The position numbers were made by a program, and so were the translations under genes. From Pseudomonadales bacterium (GTDB lineage Bacteria; Pseudomonadota; Gammaproteobacteria; Pseudomonadales; Azotimanducaceae), in the NCBI GenBank assembly GCA_028280225.1, contig JANQMF010000077.1, positions 1 to 64,000 of the forward strand: a stretch of 64,000 nt of DNA, written 5' to 3'. Positions 37,329-62,638 of this stretch are shown piece after piece (the stretch's first letter is position 1; each line of letters begins with the position of its first letter). The notes beneath the pieces are model-generated. The model was not told where the DNA came from. It was given only the letters and a program-made list of their open reading frames with translations, and ran no database searches.

Positions 37329-38096
37329 TCAGTTACGGCTGGCTGAGGGCTGCTGGGCAGGCTGAATGAACTTCTGACTTACGTCAACCATGGCCATATC
37401 GGTGAGGAAATTTCTGCCCAGAATCATATTGTGTTCCAGGTGGCTGCGGTCAGCGAGGGTAAATTCGAAGGTATCCTGCACATCACCCAGCCGAATACGC
37501 AACTCAACTACCGGACGCCTTGAACCGGACTTGTCGGCTTGCTGGTAAACCCGGACATATTTTCCCACCGGGCGCTCGATGGTCACGGTGTCTTTTTCCG
37601 CAACCAGGTCAAAACGTACCCAGTCGTCACCGTCCCGCTCAAATTCAGTGATATTTTCCGCGTGCAGGGAACTGGAACTGGCGCCGGTATCCACCCGGGC
37701 CACAATAACAAAGCCGGGTTCCGCCACCCACACGTGTTCAATTTCACCCAGCACCATCTTGCCGCTGTTGCTGACCAGTACCCGCTGGGCCGAGTTATTG
37801 CAGTCGGCGGGTTCGGGTGCATTGGCGATGCGTGACTGGCGGCAGGCGCGCAGCAGGCGTTCGCCAAGTTCATCCACACTATTGGACAGCACGGTGAACT
37901 GTCCGGCTACTTCCGCCTCGCTGGCGTAACGAAGATTACGCAGGTGGGCAATTTCATTTTCTGCCCGGGCCAGACCCGCTTTCATATCTTTCAGGTCTTT
38001 TTCCAGACCACGTATCGAAGACTGTTGCGGCGGTACCTGGGTGCAGCCAGCCAGCAGGCTGATGCAAACGATGAGGCTAAAAATCGTAAAACGCAT
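37329..38096 (-). CDS. Retropepsin-like lipoprotein protease
   Basis: 255 residues from ATG 38096, where a lipoprotein signal with LLAGC begins. A coiled-coil stretch (about 30-80) precedes a single-lobe retropepsin-like domain with DTGASSSSLHA, the active-site Asp motif, and ILGRNFL near the end. Family names include 'RimK-associated ATP-dependent zinc protease', but the DTGA motif argues for an aspartic protease. A longer frame starts at 38219; its first 41 residues would bury the lipobox. First gene of the four-gene operon; a 25-bp gap separates it from the membrane protein gene. Confidence 0.85.
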   Translation of the reverse strand: MRFTIFSLIVCISLLAGCTQVPPQQSSIRGLEKDLKDMKAGLARAENEIAHLRNLRYASEAEVAGQFTVLSNSVDELGERLLRACRQSRIANAPEPADCNNSAQRVLVSNSGKMVLGEIEHVWVAEPGFVIVARVDTGASSSSLHAENITEFERDGDDWVRFDLVAEKDTVTIERPVGKYVRVYQQADKSGSRRPVVELRIRLGDVQDTFEFTLADRSHLEHNMILGRNFLTDMAMVDVSQKFIQPAQQPSASRN

Positions 38097-38157
38097 TCTT
38101 TTTATTGCTTGATATGTTCTTCCCTGGGGGGCGTAGTCTAATGTCGTCATATAGAGC

Positions 38158-38186
38158 TTGATACTGTATATACATACAGTTATAAA
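38158..38186 (+). promoter_or_regulatory. Sigma-70 promoter of the radical SAM gene
   Basis: TTGATA (38158-38163), exactly 17 bases, TATAAA (38181-38186). It lies about 90 bases before ATG 38276 and is almost wholly covered by the LexA box. Confidence 0.65.
38162..38181. promoter_or_regulatory. LexA box (SOS operator)
   Basis: TACTGTATATACATACAGTT, with the CTGT-N8-ACAG core of gammaproteobacterial LexA sites. It occupies the spacer between the -35 and -10, so LexA binding would block transcription. PA0069, the Pseudomonas aeruginosa relative of the downstream gene, is known as a LexA-regulated gene, which supports the call. Confidence 0.8.
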
Positions 38187-38275
38187 GGCCAGTACCACCA
38201 TTTTTCGTAGTTTTTGCAAAAAACCGGAAAAATTATTCCTTGATACCGGACTTTAGCAGCTAAAGACAGGCCATT

Positions 38276-39445
38276 ATGAAAAAGATCATCTCAAGACTCG
38301 GCAGATCAGCCCCTGGCAGGGAAGGTGTGGTCAAGGGGCGGGGCAGCGGCAGCAATCAGCAAAGCCGCTATCTTGATGTAAGCTCATTTGCCGAAGCTGA
38401 TGGCTGGGAACCCGGCGACACCAACCCGGAGGATTCGCCTCAACACGGCACAGCCCAACTTGGTGCGGCACAGTACGCGGACGTGCCTGCCCCGGACACC
38501 CGGTTTTTCCCGGACCACACCAAAAAGCTGATTACCACCAACCGGTCCCCGGACCTGCCCTTCAGCCAGTCCATTAACCCGTACAAGGGGTGTGAACACG
38601 GCTGTATCTACTGTTTTGCCAGGCCCACCCACGCCTACTTGGATTTGTCACCGGGATTAGATTTTGAGACAAAAATTTTTTACAAAACGGATGTTAAGGC
38701 ACGCTTGACCGCGGAACTGGCAAAACCGGCTTACCGGTGCCGGACCATTGCCATGGGGACCAATACGGATCCTTATCAACCCGGCGAAAAACAGCACCTG
38801 GTGATACGCCAGATCCTGGAATGCCTGGCCGGGTGCCGTCACCCGGTCAGCATCGTCACCAAGAGCGCCCTGGTGCTGCGGGATATCGATATTCTCGCTA
38901 CCCTGGCCAAACAGAATCTGGTGAACGTCTATGTGAGTGTAACCACCCTGGATAACCGTCTGAAAACAAAGCTGGAACCCCGCACGGCAGGGCCGGCGGC
39001 GCGTTTAAAAACCATTACAACCCTGAGCGGGGCGGGCATACCCACCGGGGCGATGATTGCGCCGGTTATTCCCTTTATCAACGATGCTGAAATTGAAGCC
39101 CTGGTGAAGGCCTGCGCCAAGGCTGGGGCACAAACCCTGGGTTATATCCTGCTGCGCCTGCCTCTGGAAGTAAAACCGCTGTTTGAGGAGTGGTTGAGCA
39201 ATCACTACCCCCAAAGGGCGCAGCGGGTGATGTCAGCTATTCGCAGTACCCGCGGTGGGGCAGCTTATCAGTCCAAATGGCACAAACGAATGGTTGGCGA
39301 AGGTCCGGTTGCTGACCTGATTCGCACACGATTTGTATCTGCGGTGAAAAAGGCGGGTTTGGCCGAGGGCAAGTTACCGATGTTGTCCACGGACTTGTTT
39401 ATTCCACCCCGTGCCCCGGGAGATTCCCAGTTGGACCTGTTCTGA
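38276..39445 (+). CDS. PA0069-type radical SAM protein, SOS-regulated
   Basis: 389 residues. The [4Fe-4S] motif CEHGCIYC (CxxxCxxC, near residues 106-113) marks a radical SAM enzyme of the PA0069/SplB-like group, preceded by NPYKGCEHGC and followed by ARPTHAYLDLSPGLDF as in that family. Spore photoproduct lyase relatives repair DNA; the reaction of this branch is not established. The LexA-controlled promoter upstream fits a DNA-damage role. The ATG has AGG about 8 bases upstream. It is monocistronic. Confidence 0.9.
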   Translation: MKKIISRLGRSAPGREGVVKGRGSGSNQQSRYLDVSSFAEADGWEPGDTNPEDSPQHGTAQLGAAQYADVPAPDTRFFPDHTKKLITTNRSPDLPFSQSINPYKGCEHGCIYCFARPTHAYLDLSPGLDFETKIFYKTDVKARLTAELAKPAYRCRTIAMGTNTDPYQPGEKQHLVIRQILECLAGCRHPVSIVTKSALVLRDIDILATLAKQNLVNVYVSVTTLDNRLKTKLEPRTAGPAARLKTITTLSGAGIPTGAMIAPVIPFINDAEIEALVKACAKAGAQTLGYILLRLPLEVKPLFEEWLSNHYPQRAQRVMSAIRSTRGGAAYQSKWHKRMVGEGPVADLIRTRFVSAVKKAGLAEGKLPMLSTDLFIPPRAPGDSQLDLF

Positions 39446-39493
39446 TACCATTAGCCGCTGCTGGATGCGGGTAATAAGTAAACGGGTAGAAAG

Positions 39494-39599
39494 TTAAAAC
39501 GGGTAAAACGGGTAAAACGGGTAAAACGGGTTAAAAGGTAAAAGGTAAAAGGTAAAAGGGTAAAACGGGTAAAAAGGTAAAAAGGTAAAAAGGTAAAAG
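39494..39599 (+). repeat. GGTAAAA-type tandem repeat in a 5' leader
   Basis: About a dozen tandem units of 7, 8 or 9 bases, variants of GGTAAAA, GGTAAAAA and GGGTAAAAC, running straight into the ATG at 39600. The last unit provides the AAGGT Shine-Dalgarno. Mixed unit lengths show slippage; copy number probably varies between isolates. Confidence 0.85.
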
Positions 39600-41165
39600 A
39601 TGGGAGGTTGGGATTTAACCACGTGGTCGTGGATCTTTTTGTTTGCCTACATCATGATGATGCTGGCGTTCGGCTGGTTGGGTCAACGCAAGGTGGCCAA
39701 TGCAGATGACTTTGCCACGGCGCGAAATGCGTACGGCCCTTTGTTTCTTGCTTTTGCCTTCGCCGCCACAACAGCCAGCGGTGCCACCTTTGTCGGTTTT
39801 CCGGGTATTGGCTATGACGCGGGCATGGCTGCCCTTTGGTCCGTATTCCTGTATCCCATTGGTGTTTATCTGGGTGTGCTTTTGTGTTTGCACCTGGTCA
39901 GCAACAGTGGACACGAATTTGGTACCCGGTCCATCCCCGAATATCTGGGTGCCCGATACCAGTCGGATCTGATCCGCATTCTGGTATCCCTGTTTTCTCT
40001 GTCCCTGTTTTTCTACCTGGCCGGGCAGTTGGTATCCGGCCTGGTCATGTTTGAAATTATGTTAGGTGTACCTCCCGGGGTAGCCCTGGGGGTGACGGCG
40101 GGGGTGTTGTTAATTTACGTGGTCATGGGCGGGGCGCATGCCGACATCCTCACCGATGGGGTTCAGGGGTTTATCATGGTTGCCGTTGCCTTGTTGGTTA
40201 CCCTGATGTTCCTGCTGGGTTACGGCATTGAAGGGGGGCTGGGGGGCATGTTGGATCAACTTGAAGCAAAAGATCCCAACCTGGTGGGGTGGCTGAACAA
40301 GGAGAACGTGCTGTATCACTCCTGGTGGTCCGTGGTGGCCATTCTGCTAGCCCATATTCCCCTGGGCATGCTGCCCCATATCGGCAATAAATTATGGGCG
40401 CTTAAGGAACCGCGCCAGCGCAAGTCGTTTATACGCCTGGCCTTTACTTTCGGCATGATCCTTGGGATGTTGGGTTTGGGCGGCATCATGGCCAGGGTAA
40501 TTCTGGGTGAAGGGGTAAACGGCAACCAGGCGTTGGCGCTTTTGTTTATCGAGTTATTTCCCACATGGTTTGCCGCCTTGCTGGGGGTGGGGATTTTAGC
40601 GGCGGTCATGTCAACCGCGGATGGTCTGGTTGTATCCTCTTCACAAATTGTTGCCAACGATTTATACCGTCTGAGTTTTGTGCCGCGCTTCCGGCAGGAC
40701 CTGAGCGAAAGGGAAATAGAACAGCGGACATTGCGTATCAGCCGGGTGGCGACCGTTGTGATCATGGTGCTGTGTACCGCCCTGGCCTGGTCCATGCTGG
40801 ACATGAACGTAACCATCATCGTCTGGATCGGCACCGGCTGTATGATGGCGGCCTTTGCCGGTCCGTTGATCCTTGGCGCGATCTGGCGCGGCGTAACCCG
40901 GGCGGGTGCGTTTGCAGGTTTGTTAAGCGGAGGCCTGGTATTTATCATCACCTTTAACGCTCTGATTGACCCAAGCTGGTTTGCTCCGGGTATCCTGCAA
41001 CAAGCCGCTCAGTGGTTGGCGGTGGAATCCCCCAATCCCTGGTCCTGTGCGGCCATGGGTGAGCTGGTATCGGTCAGCGTTACCGTGCTGGTGTCGAAGC
41101 TGACCCGGGCACTGCCGCAAGACCATGTGGCAAGACTATTTCCGCAGACGCAGCCGCAACCATAG
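39600..41165 (+). CDS. Sodium:solute symporter (SSS family), repeat-led
   Basis: 521 residues with about 13 membrane helices. Family marks: AFAATTASGATFVGFPG at the first core helix and ILAAVMSTADGLVVSSSQIVANDLY, the conserved helix with Na+-binding Ser/Thr. It is not close in sequence feel to the symporter at 591, so substrates probably differ (amino-acid/pantothenate type and others possible). The start codon directly follows a tandem repeat whose last unit is the ribosome site. The 3' end overlaps the convergent permease gene by 30 bp. Confidence 0.88.
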   Translation: MGGWDLTTWSWIFLFAYIMMMLAFGWLGQRKVANADDFATARNAYGPLFLAFAFAATTASGATFVGFPGIGYDAGMAALWSVFLYPIGVYLGVLLCLHLVSNSGHEFGTRSIPEYLGARYQSDLIRILVSLFSLSLFFYLAGQLVSGLVMFEIMLGVPPGVALGVTAGVLLIYVVMGGAHADILTDGVQGFIMVAVALLVTLMFLLGYGIEGGLGGMLDQLEAKDPNLVGWLNKENVLYHSWWSVVAILLAHIPLGMLPHIGNKLWALKEPRQRKSFIRLAFTFGMILGMLGLGGIMARVILGEGVNGNQALALLFIELFPTWFAALLGVGILAAVMSTADGLVVSSSQIVANDLYRLSFVPRFRQDLSEREIEQRTLRISRVATVVIMVLCTALAWSMLDMNVTIIVWIGTGCMMAAFAGPLILGAIWRGVTRAGAFAGLLSGGLVFIITFNALIDPSWFAPGILQQAAQWLAVESPNPWSCAAMGELVSVSVTVLVSKLTRALPQDHVARLFPQTQPQP

Positions 41166-42500
41166 GCACAGCCCCAGGAACGCCCAGGCCATAATGGTCA
41201 GCCATTCTTCCGGCCAGGCCAATGCGCTGTTAGACCATGGAAAAAAGGCGGCTAACAAACCCACGGAAAGTAATACAGCACCGTAACCTACCAGATTGGG
41301 GTGGCTGACCTTAAAGGGGCGCGGCATCTCCGGCTCCGACCGGCGCAAAACAAGAAAGGAGGTGGCGACAAATAGAAAGGCAATGGTAATGGCAAAACTG
41401 CTTGAGTTGATCAGCCAGACAAGTATGGTGCGGCCAAAGAAAGGGGCCAGCATGGATAAAATACCGATGGTCGCAATGGCGACGTAGGGTGTTTTGTAGC
41501 GGGGGTGGATACGGGTGAAAACCGGAGGCAGGTAGCCGGACTCCGCCAGGACAAAGGTCACCCGGGAGGCACCCAATATAAAGGCGTTCCAACTGGTGAG
41601 AATGCCACCGATGCCACCCACCACCAGCAAAATTCCGGCCCAGTTAAGGTTGGCTGCCGAGGCGCCCCACAAGGTGCTGGCAGCTTCGGCGGTTGCCATC
41701 TCTGACTGGGCCAGGGCAGCGTCGGGCATACCCAGACTGGTGGACAGGGCAATTAAGATGTACCACAGCACAGCGCAGAATACTGAAATGATCATAAGAC
41801 GGCCTAACTTCCGGGGTGGCAGGTCAATCTCTTCAGCGGACTGGGGAATGACATCAAAGCCGACAAGCATTGCCGGGACCATGATCAGCACCAGGAGCAC
41901 GCCGGAAGCCGGGGTAGCCAGCCAGGGTTGTGCATGCTCAACAGAACCGCCCAGGGCAGCGCCGGTAAAGAGGGTGAGACCGGCCAGGAAGATCACTGCG
42001 GTGACGCAGGTTTGTACAAAGGCGGCGGTGCGCACGCCGATATAGTTGACCCAGGTGATGATGGCCGCACCCAGTATGCCCACCAGGACAAAGCCGAGAT
42101 CAACTTCAGCTCCCAACACATGCCATAAGGTACCCAGGCGAATTTCCGGGAACAGATAAACCAGGGCGGTAGGCAGGGCAACGGATTCGAACAGACAAAC
42201 ATTCAGATAGGAAAACAGCAGAGCCCAGGTGCAGGCAAAACTCCAGTCGGCACCCAGGGCGCGGCGTGTGTAAACATGTTCGCCGCCGGTCTTTGGCATG
42301 GCGGAAGCCAGTTCGCTGTAGGTAAGGCCAACCAGGGTAATGGCCAACCCCCCCAGGGCAAAGGCGATGACCGTGCCCAGGGTGCCCGCGGCGGTTAGCC
42401 AAACACCGGTCATCAACACCCAGCTCCAGCCGATCATGGCACCAAAGGCCAGAGCAACCACTTCGCGCCCGCGGAGGACTTTGGCGAATCTGTCAGCCAT
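41136..42500 (-). CDS. APC-superfamily amino acid permease
   Basis: 454 residues with about 12 membrane helices. The opening helix contains ALAFGAMIGWSWVLMTG, the broken helix 1 of the APC fold, and AMPKTGGEHVYTRRALG follows helix 2, both typical of amino-acid permeases. The substrate cannot be given. Convergent with the symporter gene; the small gene at 42603 is divergent. ATG 42500 is the only good start. Confidence 0.87.
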   Translation of the reverse strand: MADRFAKVLRGREVVALAFGAMIGWSWVLMTGVWLTAAGTLGTVIAFALGGLAITLVGLTYSELASAMPKTGGEHVYTRRALGADWSFACTWALLFSYLNVCLFESVALPTALVYLFPEIRLGTLWHVLGAEVDLGFVLVGILGAAIITWVNYIGVRTAAFVQTCVTAVIFLAGLTLFTGAALGGSVEHAQPWLATPASGVLLVLIMVPAMLVGFDVIPQSAEEIDLPPRKLGRLMIISVFCAVLWYILIALSTSLGMPDAALAQSEMATAEAASTLWGASAANLNWAGILLVVGGIGGILTSWNAFILGASRVTFVLAESGYLPPVFTRIHPRYKTPYVAIATIGILSMLAPFFGRTILVWLINSSSFAITIAFLFVATSFLVLRRSEPEMPRPFKVSHPNLVGYGAVLLSVGLLAAFFPWSNSALAWPEEWLTIMAWAFLGLCLWLRLRLRK

Positions 42501-42602
42501 ACGATATTATCCTGTTAGTTGTGGCAGATTGTCCGGTAACAAGCTTCCCGGTAAAATTCCTTTAGACAAGACGCCTGGTAGAAAGACTTAGCATACTGGA
42601 TA

Positions 42603-42917
42603 ATGCCGGGTTTAAGCACACAGGCTGATCCACTCTTCAACATGAGCCGGTCTCTTCCTTTTTCCCACCGTCACAAGACATTTGAATTGAAGTTAACCGA
42701 TGATGGTGCGGTGGAACTTTATCTGGACAATTGCCTGCGCAAGCGGCGTGAAGCCGGTAGGGAACCTCAGTATCTGTGGACCAACGTGGAGCTCGAATGG
42801 GAGGAGCACCACTACATAGAAGTGCGGTATTGGGCCAGCTCCGGGCAGGTGCGCATCACGGTCAACGGCGCCCCTCTGGTAGAGGACACTTGGTTGCCCG
42901 GGCAGACCGCTGAGTAA
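42603..42917 (+). CDS. Small hypothetical protein, 104 residues
   Basis: No family recognised. The protein is cytoplasmic by composition, with beta-rich alternation (FELKLTDDGAVELYLD, VRITVNGAPLVEDTW) suggesting a small sandwich domain, and a conserved-looking hydrophobic/aromatic core (LWTNVELEWEEHHYIEVRYW). GGATA precedes ATG 42603; ATG 42642 is a second option. It lies just upstream of the hybrid histidine kinase. The coherent strand pattern makes it a probable gene. Confidence 0.6.
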   Translation: MPGLSTQADPLFNMSRSLPFSHRHKTFELKLTDDGAVELYLDNCLRKRREAGREPQYLWTNVELEWEEHHYIEVRYWASSGQVRITVNGAPLVEDTWLPGQTAE

Positions 42918-43031
42918 CTAGAACGCTGGCCCGGGCCGGGGAATGCAAACCGCAAAGTACGGAAATTGCCTGAACTTGCTGTCCTCAAGATTGGGTCTAG
43001 GCTTAAGATAACTTGGTCCGCCGGGCTTCTG

Positions 43032-62534: not shown

Positions 62535-62539
62535 CCAAT

Positions 62540-62617
62540 CCGCTAACGTTGGGGTCAGACCCCAGCGTTAGCAGTTGCGAATTCGCTTACGCTGGGGTCT
62601 GACCCCAACGTTAGCGG
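62540..62617. repeat. REP-like palindromic repeat, copy 2
   Basis: 78 bp, same arms as the copy at 52527-52604 and with its asymmetric centre reversed. It lies 5 bp after the flavin reductase stop and 21 bp before the enoyl-CoA hydratase gene end, between convergent genes, a typical REP location. Such structures can stabilise mRNA ends or terminate. Confidence 0.85.
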
Positions 62618-62638
62618 TTTTGGGTTGGTGGGGATGTG

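Follow-up and report, generated by a model that had tools for sequence, protein, structure and literature searches.

The closest published case that we found to the repeat described here is that of the TAACTGA direct repeats, which lie upstream of start codons in Candidatus Maribeggiatoa (BOGUAY) and others (MacGregor 2015, PMC4679880). These repeats mostly end just before start codons and consist of one unit with little Shine-Dalgarno (SD) character that recurs in 169 sets; the paper suggests, but does not prove, that they act in translation. The ATCTTTC heptamers of hmw1A in Haemophilus influenzae (PMC8262952) are 7-bp tandem units upstream of the gene that fall within the 5' untranslated region of one transcript and between two mapped transcription starts, and their copy number was shown to set expression. 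Two further cases are cited as described in PMC4679880: the AGAT repeats of uspA2 in Moraxella catarrhalis, tandem tetranucleotides of a 5' untranslated region present in 6–23 copies depending on the strain, whose influence on a surface protein has been tested, and the long simple sequence repeats of prokaryotes (Mrazek 2007), a general class without a stated role whose growth is thought to proceed by slippage. In the present work, we analysed a degenerate tandem array that directly precedes a gene of the sodium:solute symporter family within a stretch of 64,000 nucleotides (hereafter the window) from contig JANQMF010000077.1 of a Pseudomonadales bacterium. The array belongs with the slippage-grown intergenic repeats abutting a start codon, a kind already published, and it is probably best explained as a near-neutral, lineage-specific, minisatellite-like array that grew by slippage at the edge of a gene.

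The array occupies positions 39468–39599 of the forward strand (132 bp) and was the highest-scoring repeat of the window in the Tandem Repeats Finder (TRF) analysis, with a score of 163; a second TRF listing described it with a period of 8 and 14.9 copies from position 39478. When the spacer between the two flanking genes (39446–39599, 154 bp, of which 39446–39467 is not part of the repeat) was dinucleotide-shuffled 1000 times, the maximum TRF score was 106. The tandem repeat running up to the ATG, which had been reported in an earlier note on this DNA, is therefore real, although it starts 26 bp before position 39494 given there. The array was parsed into 14 units. Its outermost part (39468–39499) holds two longer, degenerate units of 15 and 17 bp, and the rest (39500–39599) is made of twelve regular GGTAAAA-type units, among which the same unit is in places repeated two or three times in a row. 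The earlier count of about a dozen units holds for the regular ones, but their length is 7–10 bp instead of 7–9 bp, and the two longer units have to be added. The units follow each other in the order CGGGTAATAAGTAAA, CGGGTAGAAAGTTAAAA, CGGGTAAAA (three times), CGGGTTAAAA, GGTAAAA (three times), GGGTAAAA, CGGGTAAAAA, GGTAAAAA (twice) and GGTAAAAG, and the last base of the array (39599) directly adjoins the ATG of the symporter gene at 39600. Identical units are adjacent at 5 of 13 places (permutation p = 0.00045), in agreement with the slippage suggested before; this is the trace expected of local slippage, which is the putative cause. Short tandem units with signs of slippage, one of the features of a phase-variable simple-sequence contingency locus, are thus present here. 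Like the TAACTGA repeats, the array consists of short direct repeats that end just before a start codon, and it would be a member of the class of long simple sequence repeats, being more degenerate than strict repeats. Its purine fraction is 0.80, compared with a median of 0.55 in 40-nt leaders. A regulator array phased with the DNA helix was considered and rejected, as units of 7–10 bp are out of step with a turn of ~10.5 bp.

The analysis of the ribosome-binding site showed that the last two units supply an SD-like AAGG core (39590–39593, forward strand) that ends 6 nt before the ATG, as the earlier note had proposed. The array contains seven AAGG cores with an equal predicted pairing energy of −4.0 kcal/mol with the canonical 16S rRNA tail, so the further cores in the earlier units are also present. 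The anti-SD sequence was assumed to be canonical. The exact 14-base pattern of the 16S tail was not found in the draft genome, and the assumption is backed by positional enrichment: AAGG ends 4–10 nt upstream of 136 of the 1241 predicted starts of the same genome, compared with 40 starts at 34–40 nt, while GGAG occurs before 200 and 21 starts at the same two distances, which argues for ordinary SD use. We infer that ribosomes use the last AAGG of the array. The strongest anti-SD match in the region 39441–39660 is, however, GGGAGGU (−11.4 kcal/mol; 39602–39608, forward strand); it reaches from the final base of the ATG through codon 3 and is not mentioned in the earlier note. Among 34 of the named loci, 32 have a start codon that lines up with codon 4 of the window (the exceptions are L010 and L062), so GGGAGGU may be a relic of an older ribosome site. 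The nearest relative, L010, has TGG at the codon-4 position, like the window, so the shift of the start may predate the array.

The comparison with relatives was based on 102 homolog rows with identities of about 50–88%, of which nine were dropped for having less than 120 nt upstream and at least eight represent a contig seen twice. The symporter array was found in none of the 93 homologous upstream regions, which come from other species rather than strains, and the repeat is thus not kept at the locus in relatives, as it would be in a contingency locus. Small unrelated repeats occur upstream in five named loci (L017, L020, L050, L052 and L069; row L096 is L020 again). The radical SAM gene was found upstream of the symporter homolog in 17 of the 80 named loci, and the gap between this gene and the aligned start is 36–93 nt in 14 of the 17 and 139, 359 and 396 nt in the other three. 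As the same measure gives 163 nt in the window, some 100 bp were probably added to its spacer. A possible seed of the array in the nearest relative, the motif AAAGGGT in the 70-nt upstream stretch of L010, was rejected, since its local alignment to the array was matched by 192 of 500 shuffles.

A promoter inside the spacer is unlikely because the spacer of the relatives is so short in most cases, and it is not the simplest assumption; the symporter gene would instead be co-transcribed with the radical SAM gene. In the region 39200–39700, no promoter-like site was predicted on the forward strand and one was predicted on the reverse strand (0.4 expected). Hence the earlier argument that a change in copy number would alter the distance from promoter to ATG is weak, whereas the slippage blocks, the AAGG made by the array and the nature of the downstream gene stand. 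The repeats of hmw1A, with their mapped transcription starts and demonstrated effect of copy number, differ from the symporter array in these respects.

According to the explanation that we favour, replication slippage would have enlarged the array in the spacer that separates two genes of the same orientation. Its growth would be tolerated, as the added units all lie outside the coding sequence, and the ATG-proximal unit would preserve a correctly spaced SD-like AAGG, with which the gene would be translated at any copy number. The expected effect on expression would be mild and would come from a longer, A/G-rich leader; array growth itself is presumed to be nearly neutral.

One alternative is a phase- or dose-variable leader, in which slippage would alter the copy number and hence the strength of symporter translation, either through decoy AAGG sites, through leader length, or by freeing the start from pairing with a T-rich stretch in codons 11–17 (39632–39648, forward strand). 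In the predicted fold, this stretch forms base pairs with the final units of the array. The predicted cost of opening positions −12 to +6 in a transcript from 39446 is about 10 kcal/mol with 0–1 units and 2.6–4.0 kcal/mol with at least eight, and in a transcript from 39386 it falls from 10–11 to 4.0–5.4 kcal/mol, which together with the slippage-like units and the copy-number-graded heptamer arrays known at hmw1A (PMC8262952) speaks for this alternative. Near the present length, however, three of the four measures are nearly flat between 9 and 14 units: −12 to +6 from 39446 (2.6–3.7 kcal/mol), the same interval from 39386 (4.0–5.4 kcal/mol), and −15 to +15 from 39446 (3.6–4.8 kcal/mol). The fourth, −15 to +15 from 39386, still falls from 8.8 kcal/mol at 9 units to 5.7 kcal/mol at 14, a drop of about 3 kcal/mol that is mainly due to the addition of the two outer, degenerate units. 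When the array was shuffled except for its last 14 nt, the −12 to +6 measure from 39446 had a mean of 3.58 (sd 1.86, range 0.8–10.9), compared with 3.28 for the real array. As the shuffled array gives the same cost in this measure, the only one tried, the prediction seems to depend on length and composition more than on the repetition itself, and little effect would be expected if the array, at its present length, gained or lost a few regular units. Imperfect repeat units also slip less, and similar duplications flush with starts occur at dnaJ and hrcA, as described below. Phase variation is thus neither shown nor favoured, and we consider a variable leader quite unlikely.

The folding of the leader showed no special structure, the whole leader being no better than its shuffles (z = 0.13). 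No structured RNA family reached its gathering score in the region 38000–43000. A terminator-like match at 39619–39632 was rejected, since it lies inside the symporter gene and is at chance level (one match, compared with 0.8 in shuffles).

The search for similar units revealed a second array in the same genome, on contig 64, which runs to the ATG of a MaoC-type gene; forward short direct repeats ending within a few nucleotides of a start codon are thus found at both the symporter and the MaoC arrays. The MaoC-type gene is present in 20 of 40 genomes of the genus, this one included, and in the alignment, read by eye, none of the 19 orthologs from the other genomes has an array before the aligned start. 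Three consecutive copies of GTRAAA gave 34 matches in 9 of the 40 genus genomes (four for the reversed control), which group into about a dozen arrays; eight of the matches belong to the genome studied here, where they are confined to the two arrays. Not all arrays of the genus are at starts: some are located about 25–90 nt upstream of a gene or next to the end of a contig, and one is found in a convergent spacer. An array of genome G052 is a purine tract reaching up to a gene whose start we read as signal-peptide-like.

These results bear on another alternative, a functional leader without switching, in which the A/G-rich array would serve as a standby site for the ribosome or a landing zone for an RNA-binding protein and would have been selected for higher expression. 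The array alone is predicted to be barely structured (−4.4 kcal/mol over 132 nt), its purine content is high, a second similar array exists at the MaoC-type gene, and a single-stranded upstream surface controls initiation in work on standby sites (PMC3936740). On the other hand, the folding predictions place most of the last units and of the ATG in paired regions, and some GTRAAA arrays of the genus are not near starts, including the one in the convergent spacer. Given also the frequency of duplications at stop codons reported below, a leader of this kind is unlikely.

It is also conceivable that the array is an assembly artefact or a collapsed repeat, and that its real length differs. The draft genome comprises 242 contigs, and in a relative, G017, two contigs (C157 and C161) stop within a GTGAAAG array or next to one, so that such arrays can trouble assembly. 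The symporter array, however, lies in the interior of a 68.5-kb contig, its units differ from one another, and the genome contains the MaoC array as a separate example, all of which makes an artefact very improbable. As for the (GTGAAAG)n arrays themselves, they were observed in two relatives, at L135 (G005:C222) and L138 (G017:C157), with a similar flank on one side; since the G005 contig begins 64 bp before the array and those of G017 end within it or next to it, their true lengths are uncertain.

To compare the edges of genes across the genome, 1303 genes were predicted in 1.45 Mb of it using a simple coding model without SD; the start positions come from this simple gene finder of our own, and the counts have to be read with this in mind. 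Tandem copies flush with the start were found at 11 of the 1238 starts (shuffles 0.0) and flush with the stop at 10 of the 1223 stops (shuffles 0.2), the array at L192 being counted in both lists. The relative G019 had one such case among 359 starts and one among 354 stops (shuffles 0.4 each), and the named loci had none among 350 starts and 338 stops. The genome is therefore richer in edge-flush copies than the others tested (Fisher p = 0.004 for both edges together and 0.066 for starts alone), with no difference between its starts and its stops (p = 1.0). These equal frequencies fit growth tolerated at gene edges, as the slippage explanation holds, and they count against a leader selected for expression. 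The genes concerned include dnaJ, hrcA, a 5'-3' exonuclease gene and a gene of a luciferase-like enzyme. Unlike in the TAACTGA system, the units differ from gene to gene and several contain SD-like purines, with a clear SD in TACAAGGAGAAAAG (glyoxalase-type gene) and AAGAGACAGGTA (dnaJ), while the hrcA array has no clear SD; reuse of a TAACTGA-type unit was not detected, with no exact TAACTGATAACTGA in the draft genome.

Several results of the same test weigh against an explanation by gene-edge slippage only. In each of the five settings, more arrays lay −1 to 3 nt from a start than uniform placement predicts: the loosest setting gave 10 of 117 (4.5 expected, p = 0.011) and the strictest 7 of 36 (1.6 expected, p = 0.0004). 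Stops showed no excess at this distance (3 compared with 4.2 expected, and 0 compared with 1.8), and in a wider range, −8 to 20 nt, they were short of arrays (16 compared with 22.5 expected). This start excess hints at something specific to starts and would also favour a functional leader; it should be noted that the narrow range was chosen after the examples had been seen and contains both arrays of the discovery. Elsewhere it held none of the 27 arrays in G019 (0.8 expected) and none of the 22 in the named loci (0.5 expected), numbers too small to be informative. A general excess of arrays near starts (−8 to 20 nt) was rejected, with 25 arrays compared with 24.5 expected. The corresponding reading, that the species copies its own ribosome sites as gene-specific tandem SD units flush with starts, by which leaders could be lengthened or tuned genome-wide without losing the site, appears decidedly unlikely to us. 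Loss of mismatch repair as a cause of the many repeats was rejected, since the genome has both mutS (1030 bits) and mutL, each scoring above its cut-off.

Other tandem arrays at or next to starts in the same genome are located at L227 (3598–3625 and 7605–7638), L194 (7291–7386), L235 (1676–1750), L170 (2505–2562), L181 (4012–4053) and L192 (17895–17948). They belong to dnaJ, hrcA, a gene with the beginning MNRRQF, and glyoxalase, luciferase-like, exonuclease and AMP-binding genes. The MNRRQF beginning is twin-arginine-like in our reading; this gene has no Pfam match, and the gene finder placed its start further in.

The gene following the array (39600–41165, forward strand) starts with ATG and encodes a protein of 521 amino acids. 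The domain PF00474 (3.5e-47) covers residues 44–444, which confirms the symporter named in the earlier note; ten NCBIfam models match, all below their curated cut-offs, and the protein was not assigned to a substrate-defined subfamily. Its upstream partner is an open reading frame for a PA0069-family radical SAM protein (38276–39445, forward strand; NF033668, 460.2 bits at a cut-off of 360), and the next gene, for an amino acid permease, lies on the opposite strand (41136–42500). The 9-bp units of the array form a quadruplex-type motif of four G3N6 blocks on the mRNA strand (39501–39530, forward), one of two such motifs on the forward strand of the window; there are none on the reverse strand.

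Elsewhere in the window, positions 62537–62619 hold two units of 43 bp that carry the near-palindrome TGGGGTCAGACCCCA; a flavin reductase gene lies on one side of them and an enoyl-CoA hydratase gene on the other. A search of 287 loci for the exact 15-mer found it in 18 of the 100 stretches of the same genome (L166, L222 and others) and, among relatives, in the single locus L012. Its copies are often paired about 43–46 bp apart, with other pairs at 56–128 bp; judging from this distribution, it is a dispersed repeat family.

If slippage at gene edges is all that took place, the symporter locus is a case in which a repeat took over the ribosome site while the gene was kept, with the array-free state still visible in relatives. 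If the arrays flush with starts are specific to starts, this genome would be well suited to testing whether the copying of a leader's own ribosome site is a way in which leaders evolve. In both cases, the locus argues against taking every repeat that precedes a gene for a switch.
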